Shown in pieces: positions 5,885 to 10,802 of a stretch of 64,000 nt of DNA. The position numbers and the translations under genes were made by a program. The DNA lies in the NCBI RefSeq assembly GCF_900182835.1, contig NZ_FXUB01000006.1, positions 1-64,000 on the forward strand, given 5' to 3'. Origin of the DNA: Desulfurobacterium pacificum. Its GTDB lineage: Bacteria > Aquificota > Aquificia > Desulfurobacteriales > Desulfurobacteriaceae. Each line of letters starts with the position of its first letter. The first letter of the stretch is position 1. The notes beneath the pieces were generated by a model that saw nothing but the letters and a program-made list of their open reading frames with translations, was not told the DNA's origin and ran no database searches.

Positions 5885-7059
5885 CAAACTTCCTCTGAAA
5901 GTGGTAGTCTGACTACGAATCTTGCTCCACCTAATTTGCTCTTTTCTACTTTTACTGTCCCTTTGTTTTCTAATATAAATTTATTAACTATGGAGAGTCC
6001 CAAGCCTGAGCCGTTTGGATTTTTTGAATAGAAAGGTTCAAATATTTTTTCCCTTTCCTCTTCTGGTATGCCAGGTCCGTCATCCTCTACGATGATTTCT
6101 AATGTGTGGTTGTTTTTGTGGCAGTGAATTTCTACTTTAGAGTCAGCCCATTGAAAAGCGTTTCTAACGATGTTCTCAATTGTTGAGTAAAATCCGCGGG
6201 CATCCGTTTTAAATTTTATCGGCTCTACATCTAATTTATAGTTTTTGCCAAAATGTTGGAGCGATTGTAGTATCTCTTGGAATGCCTCAGGTAGAAAAAT
6301 TTCAGTTTTTATGGGTGAAGATGGGCGAGATAGATGAAGGAAATCTTTTACTATTCTGTCAAGTCTGTCTGTTTCTTTAAAGATTATCTCTAACAAGCGT
6401 TCGTTTTGCTTCCCCTCTTTTATCAGTTCCAAAGCGCCTTTAATGGAAGCTAAGGGGTTTTTGATTTCATGAGCCATATTGGCGCTTATTTCGTATAGTC
6501 TTTTGTAAAACTCAGTTCTTTCCTTTTCTTTTTCTAACTCTTTTATGTAGAAGGCTTGAGATTTGAGCTTTCTTTCTAACTTTAATCCTGCAACAAACAT
6601 TGCTATTAAAGCTGTACTGTTAAGTACTGTTTGTACTCCAGTTGCTATTCCTTCGTTATGTTTCTGAAGGAAAAAAATTATGTGAAGGAAGAGACCAAAT
6701 ATCAGAGATGTTGTTCCGCTGATACTACCCAATATTATCGTTGAGAAAAAAACAGGAAATATGAGAAATATGGAAAAGAAGTTGTAATTAAGGACGTTTG
6801 ATGCTACTAAGGTAAATATGACAGCTTCGTCCAACAGGAATTCAAATGTGTACGGTTTTTTGGAAAAAAGGAGAAGCGCTACACTGACTATAACGTAAAT
6901 TCCTAAAATAAATAGAGAACTTGGAGCTACAGGAAGTTTGCTTATAGATGATAGAGAAAGGAAGAGGAAAAAGATGCCGGATGAGAAGGCAAGCCTTCCC
7001 ACCCTGTATATGAGATATAACCTGTCTGGGAATAGGTTGCTACTTTCAATTTCCTTCAC
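5884..7059 (-). CDS. Membrane histidine kinase, PilS/NtrB-like
   Basis: A 391-residue sensor kinase. About six hydrophobic segments fill residues 12-160 with little periplasmic sequence, as in PilS-type sensors. A short coiled linker leads to the HisKA domain with H197 in the box [17 protein letters not shown]. The catalytic domain has an N-box ([11 protein letters not shown] near 292), G1 EDDGPGIP and G2 [10 protein letters not shown]. It overlaps the purL 3' end by 14 bp and its stop overlaps the regulator start, so purL, kinase and regulator form one transcription unit. The signal is unknown; no PAS domain is visible. Confidence 0.92.
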
Positions 7060-9277
7060 CTGATAACTCTTTTTCCAAAGCTGTTTCGTAAAGTTGTTTG
7101 GCTTCAGGAATGCTTAAATTAACTACTTCTTTGCCTTTATGTTTTATTATACCTGTTTTCTGTGCTGTTACCGTTCCTATTACCTTTGCTGGGACAGTTT
7201 TCTTTTTGAAGAACTCTAACGCTTCTTCAACCTTTTCTGGTGATACCGTTATAATAACTCTACTCTGCTCTTCTCCAAAAAACAGGAAGTCTGTTCTTAT
7301 ATCTTCGGAAAGTTCTACTTCAAAGCCCAACTCTCTTTCAAAAGCAGATTCAAACAGTGCAACGGTTAAACCGCCTTCAGATACATCGTGGGCGCTCTTT
7401 ATCATGCCTTTCTCTATGCTTTCAATTAAAGCGTTCTGTAGGGTTTTTTCAAACTGGAGGTCTATTGTCTGTCCCTGTCCTTTTATCGTTCCTGTGACTA
7501 ACTTTTGGTATTCTGAGCCTGAAACGTTACCTGTGTTTTCTCCTAACAGGATTATTACATCTTCGGGTGATTTGAAGAACGATGTCATCCTCTTCTCAAT
7601 ATCGTCAATTACTCCGACGCATACAACAGTTGGGGTAGGATAAACTGCCCTTTTGCCTTTTTCAGTTGTCGTTTCGTTGTAGAAACTGACATTTCCACTT
7701 ACCACCGGCGTTTCAAGAATTCTGCATGCATCTGCCATTCCATCTGTTGCTTTAACGAACTGCCACATAATTTCCGGGTCTTCCGGGCTTCCAAAGTTGA
7801 GACAATCGGTTATAGCTTTTGGTCTGGCGCCGGTGCAGGCAACGTTTCTTGCTGCTTCAGCAACTGCTATTTTTCCGCCTTCATATGGGTTTAGATAACA
7901 ATACCTTGCGTTGCAGTCGGAACTTATAGCTATTCCTTTTTTGCTTTCCTTTACTCTTATGAGAGAAGCATCTCCGCCTGGATAGATGACGGTGTTTATT
8001 TGAACCATGTGGTCGTACTGTCTGTAAATCCATCTCTTGCTTGCTATTGTTGGCGATGAGAGGAGTTTTTTCGTTATTTCATTGTAGTTTTCCGGTTCCG
8101 GAATTTCGTTCTGGTTGTAGTTTCTGTTTTCTATTATGTATTTGGGAGTTTTGAAAGGTCTGTAGTAAACAGGGGCTTCGTCTGTTAAAGCTTTTATGGG
8201 GAGTTCTGCAACTTTATCACCATGCCAGAAGAGCCTTATTACAGGTTCTTCTATTATCTCTCCTATTACGCAGGCGTCTAATTCCCACTTGCGGAATACT
8301 TCCATTATCTCTTCTTCTTTTCCTTTTTCACATACGACAAGCATTCTTTCTTGAGATTCTGAAAGCATTATTTCGTAAGGCGTCATGTTCTCTTCACGCA
8401 GAGGGACTTTATCAAGGTCAAGTTTTATTCCAACGCCGCCACGGGAAGCCATTTCAACGGAAGATGAGGTTAATCCAGCTGCGCCCATATCCTGAATGGC
8501 TACTATGCCATCCTTTTCCATCGCTTCAAGGCAAGCTTCTATAAGGAGCTTTTCTATGAATGGGTCTCCGACCTGGACGTTAACTTTCTTTTCAACTTCC
8601 TCTTCAGAAGAAAACTCTTCAGAAGCCATTGTTGCGCCGTGAATACCGTCTCTGCCTGTTTTTGAGCCAACGTAGATAACGGGGTTTCCAACGCCAGCAG
8701 CTTTAGCGTAGAAGATTTTGTCTTTTCTTACTATTCCTAAAGCGAACGCGTTGACTAAGGGATTTGTCTGATAGCAGGAGTCAAAGTAAACTTCACCGCC
8801 TACAGTTGGAACGCCTACGCAGTTTCCGTAATGGCTGATTCCAGATACTACTCCTTTTGCAACGTAGCGCATCTTTGGGTCGTGAAGTTCACCAAAGCGC
8901 AGGGAATCCATGCAGGCAACGGGTCTTGCACCCATTGTAAAAACGTCTCTCAGGATTCCGCCTACGCCTGTTGCTGCTCCGTGAAACGGTTCTATGAATG
9001 ATGGGTGGTTGTGGGATTCTACTTTAAAAGCTGCGCATATCTGTTTTTCCTCATCAACCATTATTATTCCTGCGTTTTCGCCTGGTCCTTGAACAACCCA
9101 TGGTGCTTCTGTGGGGAACTTTTTGAGGTGAGGACGTGAGGATTTGTAGGAACAGTGTTCTGACCACATTGCAGAGAAAATTCCTAACTCTACCAAATTG
9201 GGTTCTCTTCCTAAAATCTCTTTTATTTTTTCGTATTCCTCATAAGTTACGTGTTGTTCTATTATTTTTCTGTCCAT
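7046..9277 (-). CDS. purL: Phosphoribosylformylglycinamidine synthase II (PurL)
   Basis: A 743-residue synthetase subunit that converts FGAR to FGAM with ATP and ammonia in purine synthesis; length fits the small PurL form that works with PurS and PurQ. Visible motifs are [13 protein letters not shown] (about residues 37-49), the nucleotide and Mg-binding [19 protein letters not shown], and GDASLIRV and [10 protein letters not shown] in the second half. ATG 9277 follows GGAGCAGG. purS and purQ are not nearby, and the downstream genes are a two-component system, an unusual partner for purL. Confidence 0.97.
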
Positions 9278-9405
9278 TCCTGCTCCTCTGCTATAGTTGT
9301 CTGCATAGGAAAGTATATCAGGAATGGGATAGCTACTTGAAAAGTTGGAGTTTTAGATTAAATTCAGTTTTAGAAAATTTAAAATAAAGTTTGAGGAGGA
9401 GAGAG

Positions 9406-9855
9406 ATGGCAGTTGTTGGATTTGCAAAGTTAGAAGCTCTTTTCAGAAAAGCTGCGAGCCTTGATATTGACAAGAACAAGGCTAAAGAAATCACGGACAT
9501 TGTAGAAAAGAAATTGTACGATTTGCTTCTCATTGGTGAAAGAAATGCGAGCTTTAACAACAGAGACGTTATTTGGGAATGTGACGTTCCTTTGACAAAG
9601 GGTTTCTTAGAGTCTATGCAAAAATTCAGGGATTTGGAAGAAGCTCTTGAGTTAAAAGATGTTCTTGACTTTTTAGCTACACAGCCACCTTTAAAGTATC
9701 CACTTGAAGCTGAACTTGAGAAGAGACTTCCAGAAATTGTTGGAACGCTACTTTATATCCTTGCAAGGATAATTAAGGAAACCTCACCTGAGTGCAGACA
9801 GCCTTCTTCTGAGGATATAGAGAGGGCAGGAAAGATACTTGACCTGACGATGTAA
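9406..9855 (+). CDS. DUF1931 histone-fold protein (bacterial histone-like pseudodimer)
   Basis: A 149-residue protein beginning MAVVGFAKLEALFRKAASLD. The sequence pattern matches DUF1931, the family of Aquifex aeolicus Aq_328, whose known structure is two histone-fold units in one chain. Two halves are visible: residues about 5-70 (KLYDLLLIGERNASFNNRDVI then VPLTKGF, the loop-2-like segment) and about 80-145 (LPEIVGTLLYILARIIKE). ATG 9406 with GAGGAGGA at 9393-9400 is preferred over the in-frame TTG 9391. Monocistronic, with a strong terminator right after. DNA binding is not shown by sequence; net charge is not strongly basic, unlike archaeal HMf histones, so its role may differ. Confidence 0.85.
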   Translation: MAVVGFAKLEALFRKAASLDIDKNKAKEITDIVEKKLYDLLLIGERNASFNNRDVIWECDVPLTKGFLESMQKFRDLEEALELKDVLDFLATQPPLKYPLEAELEKRLPEIVGTLLYILARIIKETSPECRQPSSEDIERAGKILDLTM

Positions 9856-9876
9856 TCGTTTCGTTTAGAGTTTTGG

Positions 9877-9907
9877 AATCCCCCCGTTGTTTTTGGGGGG
9901 ATTTTTT
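9877..9907 (+). terminator. Rho-independent terminator of the histone-fold gene
   Basis: AATCCCCCC (9877-9885) pairs with GGGGGGATT (9895-9903) across a 9-base loop, and the T-run continues to 9907. It lies 22 bp after the stop codon and insulates the gene from the next cluster. Confidence 0.92.
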
Positions 9908-9979: not shown

Positions 9980-10066
9980 ATGCTGATTTTATACGTTCTT
10001 ATGGCAATGTTGGTATTAGCTTTAGCTTATATGGCTTTTGTTTTATCTAAACCGATAGAGCAGTAA
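9980..10066 (+). CDS. Putative 28-residue single-pass membrane peptide
   Basis: A short frame from ATG 9980 to TAA 10066 encodes 28 residues. About 20 consecutive hydrophobic residues (LILYVLMAMLVLALAYMAF) are followed by a small polar tail ending LSKPIEQ. The AAGGAGGT of the next gene starts inside its stop codon, so it would be the first gene of the following cluster. Its own ribosome site is weak (GTAGAAAG). It resembles the small membrane subunits of respiratory or transport complexes in form only. No homology is claimed; it could be chance sequence. Confidence 0.4.
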   Translation: MLILYVLMAMLVLALAYMAFVLSKPIEQ

Positions 10067-10075
10067 GGAGGTATT

Positions 10076-10291
10076 TTGTTCGTTAACTTGAGTATGACTT
10101 TGAGAGAGTGCCTTGAAAAGTACCCGGAAGTTGAAGATATTCTTTACCGCTATATAGAAGAGTGTCTTTACTGCGAAGGGTTTAAAGATGAACCTCTTGA
10201 GGTTGTTCTGAAAGCACATAAGCTTCAGCCGGAAAAAGTTGTGAAAGAGATTAACGAGTTTTTAAAGGAGAAGAGGAGAGATGGAGTTTAA
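10076..10291 (+). CDS. DUF1858 domain protein
   Basis: A 71-residue protein whose pattern (TLRECLEKYPEVEDILYRY, then a CxxC as CLYC near residue 30, then a helical tail) fits the DUF1858 hybrid-cluster-associated family. Those small domains often occur with redox proteins, and their biochemical role is unknown. TTG 10076 is chosen because of the perfect AAGGAGGT at 10065-10072; the first ATG (10094) would be 22 bases from it. It overlaps the next gene by 11 bp. Confidence 0.75.
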   Translation: MFVNLSMTLRECLEKYPEVEDILYRYIEECLYCEGFKDEPLEVVLKAHKLQPEKVVKEINEFLKEKRRDGV

Positions 10292-10802
10292 CGTACTTTC
10301 TGCCGTCAGGACGGTTGCGGAGTTGATGTGTTGTGCAGCGATAACAGCACCTAAGGGGAAGGGACAGAATCTTTTATATGTAAAGGTTTTTGAAGGTGAA
10401 GGGAAAGATAGGGTTGCAGACTTGATGGAAAAGTTGGGGGAGGAAAATAACGTTAAGTTCTTCATAAGAGATGCGAAAAACGTTAGAGATTCTTTGGTTG
10501 TTGTTTTTATAGGAACGGAAGTTAAACCGAGGGGTGTTCCCTTCTGCGGCTTTTGCGGTTTTGAGAATTGTGAAAAGTCAGCAGCTGTTGGTGCTTACTG
10601 TTCTTACGCTGTTGGGGATTTGGGAATAGCGGTGGGGTCTGCCGTTAAAGTAGCTGCAGAACACTGCATTGATAACAGGGTTATGTTCTCTTTCGGTAAG
10701 GCAGCTATTGTTGGAGGTTTTGTTCCTGAGAAGGTGAAATTGGGTTACGGTATTCCGCTTTCTGTGAGCGGGAAGAACATATTTTTTGACAGGAAAATGT
10801 AA
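10281..10802 (+). CDS. DUF2148 ferredoxin-like domain protein
   Basis: A 173-residue cysteine-rich protein of the DUF2148/COG4739 type. Cys pairs are seen at MCCAA (about residues 16-18), in PFCGFCGFENCEK (C-x2-C-x5-C, about 89-98), in AYCSY and in EHC. This spacing suggests an iron-sulfur or other metal centre; family members are annotated as ferredoxin-domain proteins of unknown function. ATG 10281 lies after GAGAAGAGGAGAG. Its TAA overlaps the corA ATG (TAATG), so the genes are coupled. Confidence 0.82.
   Translation: MEFNVLSAVRTVAELMCCAAITAPKGKGQNLLYVKVFEGEGKDRVADLMEKLGEENNVKFFIRDAKNVRDSLVVVFIGTEVKPRGVPFCGFCGFENCEKSAAVGAYCSYAVGDLGIAVGSAVKVAAEHCIDNRVMFSFGKAAIVGGFVPEKVKLGYGIPLSVSGKNIFFDRKM

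Follow-up and report, generated by a model that had tools for sequence, protein, structure and literature searches.

Introduction

DUF1931 proteins have been classed as pseudodimeric histones without the conventional DNA-binding residues (PMC11390915, PMC12701072), and the absence of these residues is also reported in PMC13088155. A preliminary description of the locus presented here considered the role of such proteins to be open, and I agree; the family has solved structures without an assigned function. The same description regarded their DNA binding in thermophilic bacteria as poorly explored. This was overstated, since the family is covered by PMC11390915, PMC12701072, PMC10627809 with PMC11521991, and PMC13140390. 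The DUF1931 copies of Thermus and Aquifex are highly expressed (PMC10627809 Fig. 6a; correction PMC11521991). Thermus TT_C1115 belongs to a low-insertion class in Tn-seq (PMC13140390), which is in line with a useful role. The histone doublet of Methanopyrus kandleri binds DNA (PMC13088155), and models of archaeal acidic doublets, whose median pI is 4.7, show a basic ridge for DNA (PMC13260811). The Sos pseudodimer works through protein contacts (PMC13088155). The question of whether DUF1931 proteins contact DNA or proteins alone is relevant to the move of the histone fold into and out of chromatin.

In this study, a DUF1931 gene was analysed in a window of 64,000 nucleotides from Desulfurobacterium pacificum, a heat-loving vent bacterium of the Desulfurobacteriaceae (Aquificota) with a genome of 1.59 Mb in 11 contigs. 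To the described family, the window gene contributes conserved regulatory signals as well as a neighbourhood pointing to testable partners.

A double histone fold of the TTHA1479 type

The features of the locus are collected in Table 1. The ORF runs from an ATG at 9406 to a TAA stop codon (9853-9855) and has 149 codons. In a Pfam profile search, its product matched PF09123 (DUF1931) with an E-value of 5.6e-55 and a score of 185.8 bits, against a curated cut-off of 21.8, over the full domain (profile positions 1-138 of 138). Thus, the DUF1931 membership proposed earlier is borne out over the full length. By sequence, the closest solved protein is TTHA1479 (1WWI; 5.7e-39), and Aq_328 (1R4V) is farther (3.4e-13). 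The sequence makes the window protein a TTHA1479-type DUF1931 member, and this family assignment is firm. The gene is a further member of a described family and belongs to the TTHA1479-like branch, not to the divergent Aq_328 branch. Histones of archaea and Bdellovibrio gave weak matches to a profile of 26 Aquificota relatives, and these matches end on the L2 loop.

Table 1. Features of the DUF1931 locus in the window
Feature	Position	Strand	Basis or remark
purL	7046-9277	-	divergent upstream neighbour; 128-nt gap to the DUF1931 gene
Sigma-70-type promoter TTGAAA-N16-TAAATT	9337..9364	+	scan; pattern kept in 12/13 Desulfurobacteriaceae loci
Shine-Dalgarno site AGGAGG, spaced 6 nt from the ATG	9394..9399	+	AGGAGG in 12/12 Desulfurobacteriaceae upstream regions inspected
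DUF1931 double histone-fold protein, 149 aa, pI 4.9	9406..9855	+	ORF, profile search, model
First histone fold, residues 1-76	9406..9633	+	DSSP on model; alignment with histones of archaea and Bdellovibrio
First L2 loop, residues 53-60 (RDVIWECD)	9562..9585	+	R53 and D60 invariant; K-T replaced by D/E-V
Second histone fold, residues 83-148	9652..9849	+	DSSP on model
Intrinsic terminator hairpin, then T-rich tail	9875..9905	+	folding; hairpin at equivalent spot in most relatives

An AlphaFold2 model of the protein was obtained with a pLDDT of 92.5 and a pTM of 0.86. DSSP assigned the helices of the first fold to residues 6-17 (alpha1), 23-50 (alpha2), and 65-76 (alpha3), and those of the second fold to residues 83-91 (alpha1'), 102-126 (alpha2'), and 135-148 (alpha3'). 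In the model, two tandem alpha1-L1-alpha2-L2-alpha3 units are packed in a handshake, as in a double histone fold or pseudodimeric histone. Foldseek matched the model to 1WWI (TM 0.95), 1R4V (TM 0.82), and the M. kandleri histone 1F1E (TM 0.65). The preliminary description had proposed two tandem histone halves like those of Aq_328 and a structural comparison with 1R4V. The two halves and the handshake were found, but the nearest fold is that of 1WWI rather than Aq_328. The fold claim is secure, as it rests on the family profile, the solved relatives, and the confident model with its Foldseek placement. Homology and the confident model show the single chain with its two histone folds as an intramolecular handshake dimer.

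A single-gene transcription unit

The DUF1931 gene is its own single-gene unit with a constitutive-looking character. The next plus-strand operon downstream starts at 10076. A generic scan of the window alone for promoters and terminators performed no better than on shuffled sequences, and the single-unit claim is therefore carried by conservation. A pattern TTGnnn-N16/17-TAAATT, starting 59-70 nt upstream of the ATG, is present in 12 of the 13 Desulfurobacteriaceae loci, several of which are close kin and not fully independent, compared with 0.6% per shuffled upstream region.

The hairpin downstream of the gene has 12 pairs (-19.1 kcal/mol, z -3.7), and none of 200 shuffles was as good. A strict Watson-Crick hairpin follows the stop codon in 15 of 22 loci versus 1.0% of random windows. 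The hairpins of the relatives differ in sequence and lie at an equivalent position 3' of the stop codon. The hairpin of the window itself is missed by this strict test because it can form only with G-U pairs or with a loop of 9 nt.

The codon adaptation index of the DUF1931 gene is 0.674, which lies in the range of ribosomal protein genes (0.62-0.75) and ranks 11th among 146 genes, all sampled from only a few genome stretches. The conserved promoter, the AGGAGG site, the hairpin, this ribosomal-protein-like codon use, and the published expression of relatives make high expression of the window gene likely. Thus, of what had been proposed from the letters alone, the separate transcription unit (with the divergent purL and the operon at 10076 on its two sides) and the strong terminator are confirmed, and a high independent expression is probable.

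Distribution and constraint

Of 136 Aquificota genomes, 52 carry DUF1931. Within the Desulfurobacteriaceae, it is absent from the sampled genomes of two genera (g3 and g5) and from some members of two others (g6 and g7). Given these absences, DUF1931 cannot be a universal requirement. In a comparison with a Persephonella-type genome, the identity is 85% for DUF1931, 79% for L2, 69% for enolase, and 56% for PurL. Within the family, the identity is 83-89% for DUF1931 versus 98% for ribosomal protein L2. The high identity to the Persephonella-type genome points to a strong constraint on DUF1931.

When the coding region at 9406-9852 was compared with those of the genomes G039 and G009, the cross-order identity (85%) equalled the within-family identity, unlike for L2, enolase, and PurL. 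This pattern may reflect rate variation or an old transfer. A horizontal transfer between Desulfurobacteriaceae and Hydrogenothermaceae, which the cross-order identity had suggested, is not claimed, since a single Desulfurobacteriales clade was not rejected (p-AU 0.41) in a tree with family f5 as an outgroup. The Hydrogenothermaceae sequences group together in this tree. The tree does not force a transfer, and the identities can be explained by a conserved core together with some fast sites. Aquifex aeolicus (G060) has two divergent DUF1931 copies on long branches (C1:214463 and C1:419125), which I take to be Aq_328 and, probably, aq_616.

DNA-contact residues and a possible protein-binding role

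In DNA-binding histones, the K and T residues of the RKT motif in L2 contact DNA. In the first L2 loop of the DUF1931 proteins, R53 and D60 are invariant in 26 sequences with a spacing of 7, as in the structural R-D pair (RxTxxxxD). The two contact residues between them are not kept among these Aquificota relatives; 22 of the 26 have E or D at position 54, and 21 have V at position 55. In the second-half loop, R131 is followed by K/Q-P. The proteins are acidic in 25 of the 26 relatives (pI 4.9-5.6; 6.9 in the remaining one), with net charges from 0 to -7. Basic residues are conserved at the loop edges, namely R14, K23, K25, K97, K124, and R131. HU was found in the window's genome and is present in 59 of 61 relatives.

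The data do not support a DNA-packaging histone role for the window protein; its pI of 4.9, the change of K-T to D/E-V, and the presence of HU in the same genome argue against a conventional histone. With the absence of the gene from some relatives, these features weaken the chromatin role that the preliminary description had implied. The conserved basic loop-edge residues make a weak or one-sided DNA contact possible. DNA binding is still compatible with an acidic pI, given the acidic doublets with a modelled basic ridge and the M. kandleri doublet.

I favour, with a confidence only somewhat above even, the explanation that the window protein is an abundant protein-binding histone-fold pseudodimer rather than a DNA packager like archaeal histones or HU. 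The two histone folds of one chain pack on each other, and the single-gene unit probably provides the protein in large amounts. This abundant soluble scaffold or chaperone-like partner may then bind other proteins via the conserved loop edges and the alpha2 faces, in a manner that could be likened to the histone pseudodimers of the Sos or SPT3 type. The explanation draws on the fold and family, the acidity of the relatives, the altered L2 residues, the presence of HU, the absence of the gene from g3 and g5, the strong constraint, the codon use, the adjacency to the gene cluster described below, the published family surveys, the low insertion tolerance of TT_C1115, and the protein contacts of the Sos pseudodimer. 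The conserved basic edges, the acidic doublets that are associated with DNA, and the missing cluster link in the window's genome count against it.

Could the protein instead be a true nucleoid protein, that is, an abundant acidic doublet with a partial basic edge (K23/K25 of L1 with R131-K/Q132 of L2') that helps HU to organise the hot chromosome? The basic residues conserved at the loop edges and the likely high expression would suit this role, as would the fold near the M. kandleri histone, the basic ridge modelled on acidic archaeal doublets (PMC13260811), and the high expression of the Thermus and Aquifex copies (PMC10627809). I consider this main rival rather unlikely, because the L2 loop carries D/E-V in a protein with a pI of 4.9, conventional DNA-binding residues are lacking according to the published surveys (PMC11390915, PMC12701072), and some close relatives have HU but no DUF1931.

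Gene neighbourhood and candidate partners

In Desulfurobacteriaceae, DUF1931 lies mostly between purL and a DUF1858-DUF2148-CorA operon. In the window (10076-10802), the DUF1858 gene (hybrid-cluster-associated, just below the cut-off) overlaps with the DUF2148 gene (ferredoxin-like) and CorA follows; these genes are kept together across the Desulfurobacteriaceae. A possible 28-aa single-helix membrane peptide is encoded just 5' of the DUF1858 gene (9980-10066). It is probably not conserved, since the matching gap in the locus L027 is shorter.

In Hydrogenothermaceae (f3), DUF1931 commonly comes after the genes for UPF0128, c8, prefoldin subunits, YfdX, c14, and c11, and before UPF0114. Pfam searches found the prefoldin and YfdX domains; c14 and c11 are membrane proteins without Pfam names, and c8 has no Pfam match. 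In one Aquificaceae genome (G080, family f4), c11 is directly upstream of DUF1931, and in family f5, c14-c11 is about 3 kb (3.2 kb) away. Same-strand adjacency to the cluster is thus present in f3 and one f4 genome, approximated in f5, and absent in Desulfurobacteriaceae. In the window's genome, a UPF0128-c8-prefoldin-c14-c11 cluster without DUF1931 is on another contig (c11 at C1 550540-551067). The cluster itself, composed of UPF0128, c8, prefoldin alpha, in some cases prefoldin beta and YfdX, c14, and c11, is conserved in Aquificota (L140:9026-12130 and L092:3852-9061), and its prefoldin is of the archaeal type although the hosts are bacteria.

Among the 136 genomes, DUF1931 occurs in 52 and c11 in 45, and they occur together in 34 (Fisher p 4e-10, the counts being inflated by shared ancestry). 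DUF1931 is found without c11 in 18 genomes and c11 without DUF1931 in 11. The prefoldin/YfdX/membrane-protein cluster of Hydrogenothermaceae would be the best partner lead for DUF1931, although it is a lead and not a result. It is improbable that DUF1931 is specifically the soluble partner of this cluster (with UPF0114) in membrane-protein quality control or the stress response of Aquificota. The location of DUF1931 beside c11 on the same strand in several genera of f3 and in G080, the proximity in f5, the co-occurrence, and the prefoldin and YfdX domains point in this direction. Against them stand the common ancestry behind the co-occurrence, the genomes having only one of the two genes, and the lack of linkage between DUF1931 and the cluster in the window's genome and in A. 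aeolicus. I give slightly less credence still to the broader proposal that the DUF1931 doublets of thermophilic Aquificota left chromatin and serve a prefoldin-linked membrane-protein/stress module (c14-c11, YfdX, UPF0114). If it were true, the histone fold would be part of bacterial protein quality control. A phage or defence origin was rejected, as PADLOC and PHROG gave no match for the window protein and no relative was found on viral contigs.

Comparison with known proteins

The favoured protein-binding pseudodimer can be set beside four described systems. TTHA1479/TT_C1115 of Thermus thermophilus (1WWI, 1WWS) resembles the window protein in family, length, and fold, with 45% identity over the whole chain, and both have a conserved N-x-R-(D/E)...D loop; its host belongs to a different phylum. 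Aq_328 of A. aeolicus (1R4V) shares the family, the fold, and the phylum. However, it has only 28% identity, is on a divergent branch with the second A. aeolicus paralogue, and lacks the conserved PPLKYPLEAEL segment. The M. kandleri doublet (1F1E) is likewise an acidic pseudodimer with two histone folds per chain. Its identity is 15%, and it is a reported DNA binder (PMC13088155), in contrast to DUF1931, in which the residues that usually contact DNA are missing. The bacterial alpha3 histones (HBb/Bd0055) have the histone fold in common with the window protein and match the profile weakly across the L2 R...D motif. In contrast to DUF1931, they consist of a single fold, keep the RKT motif, are positively charged, and bind DNA (PMC11390915, PMC13260811).
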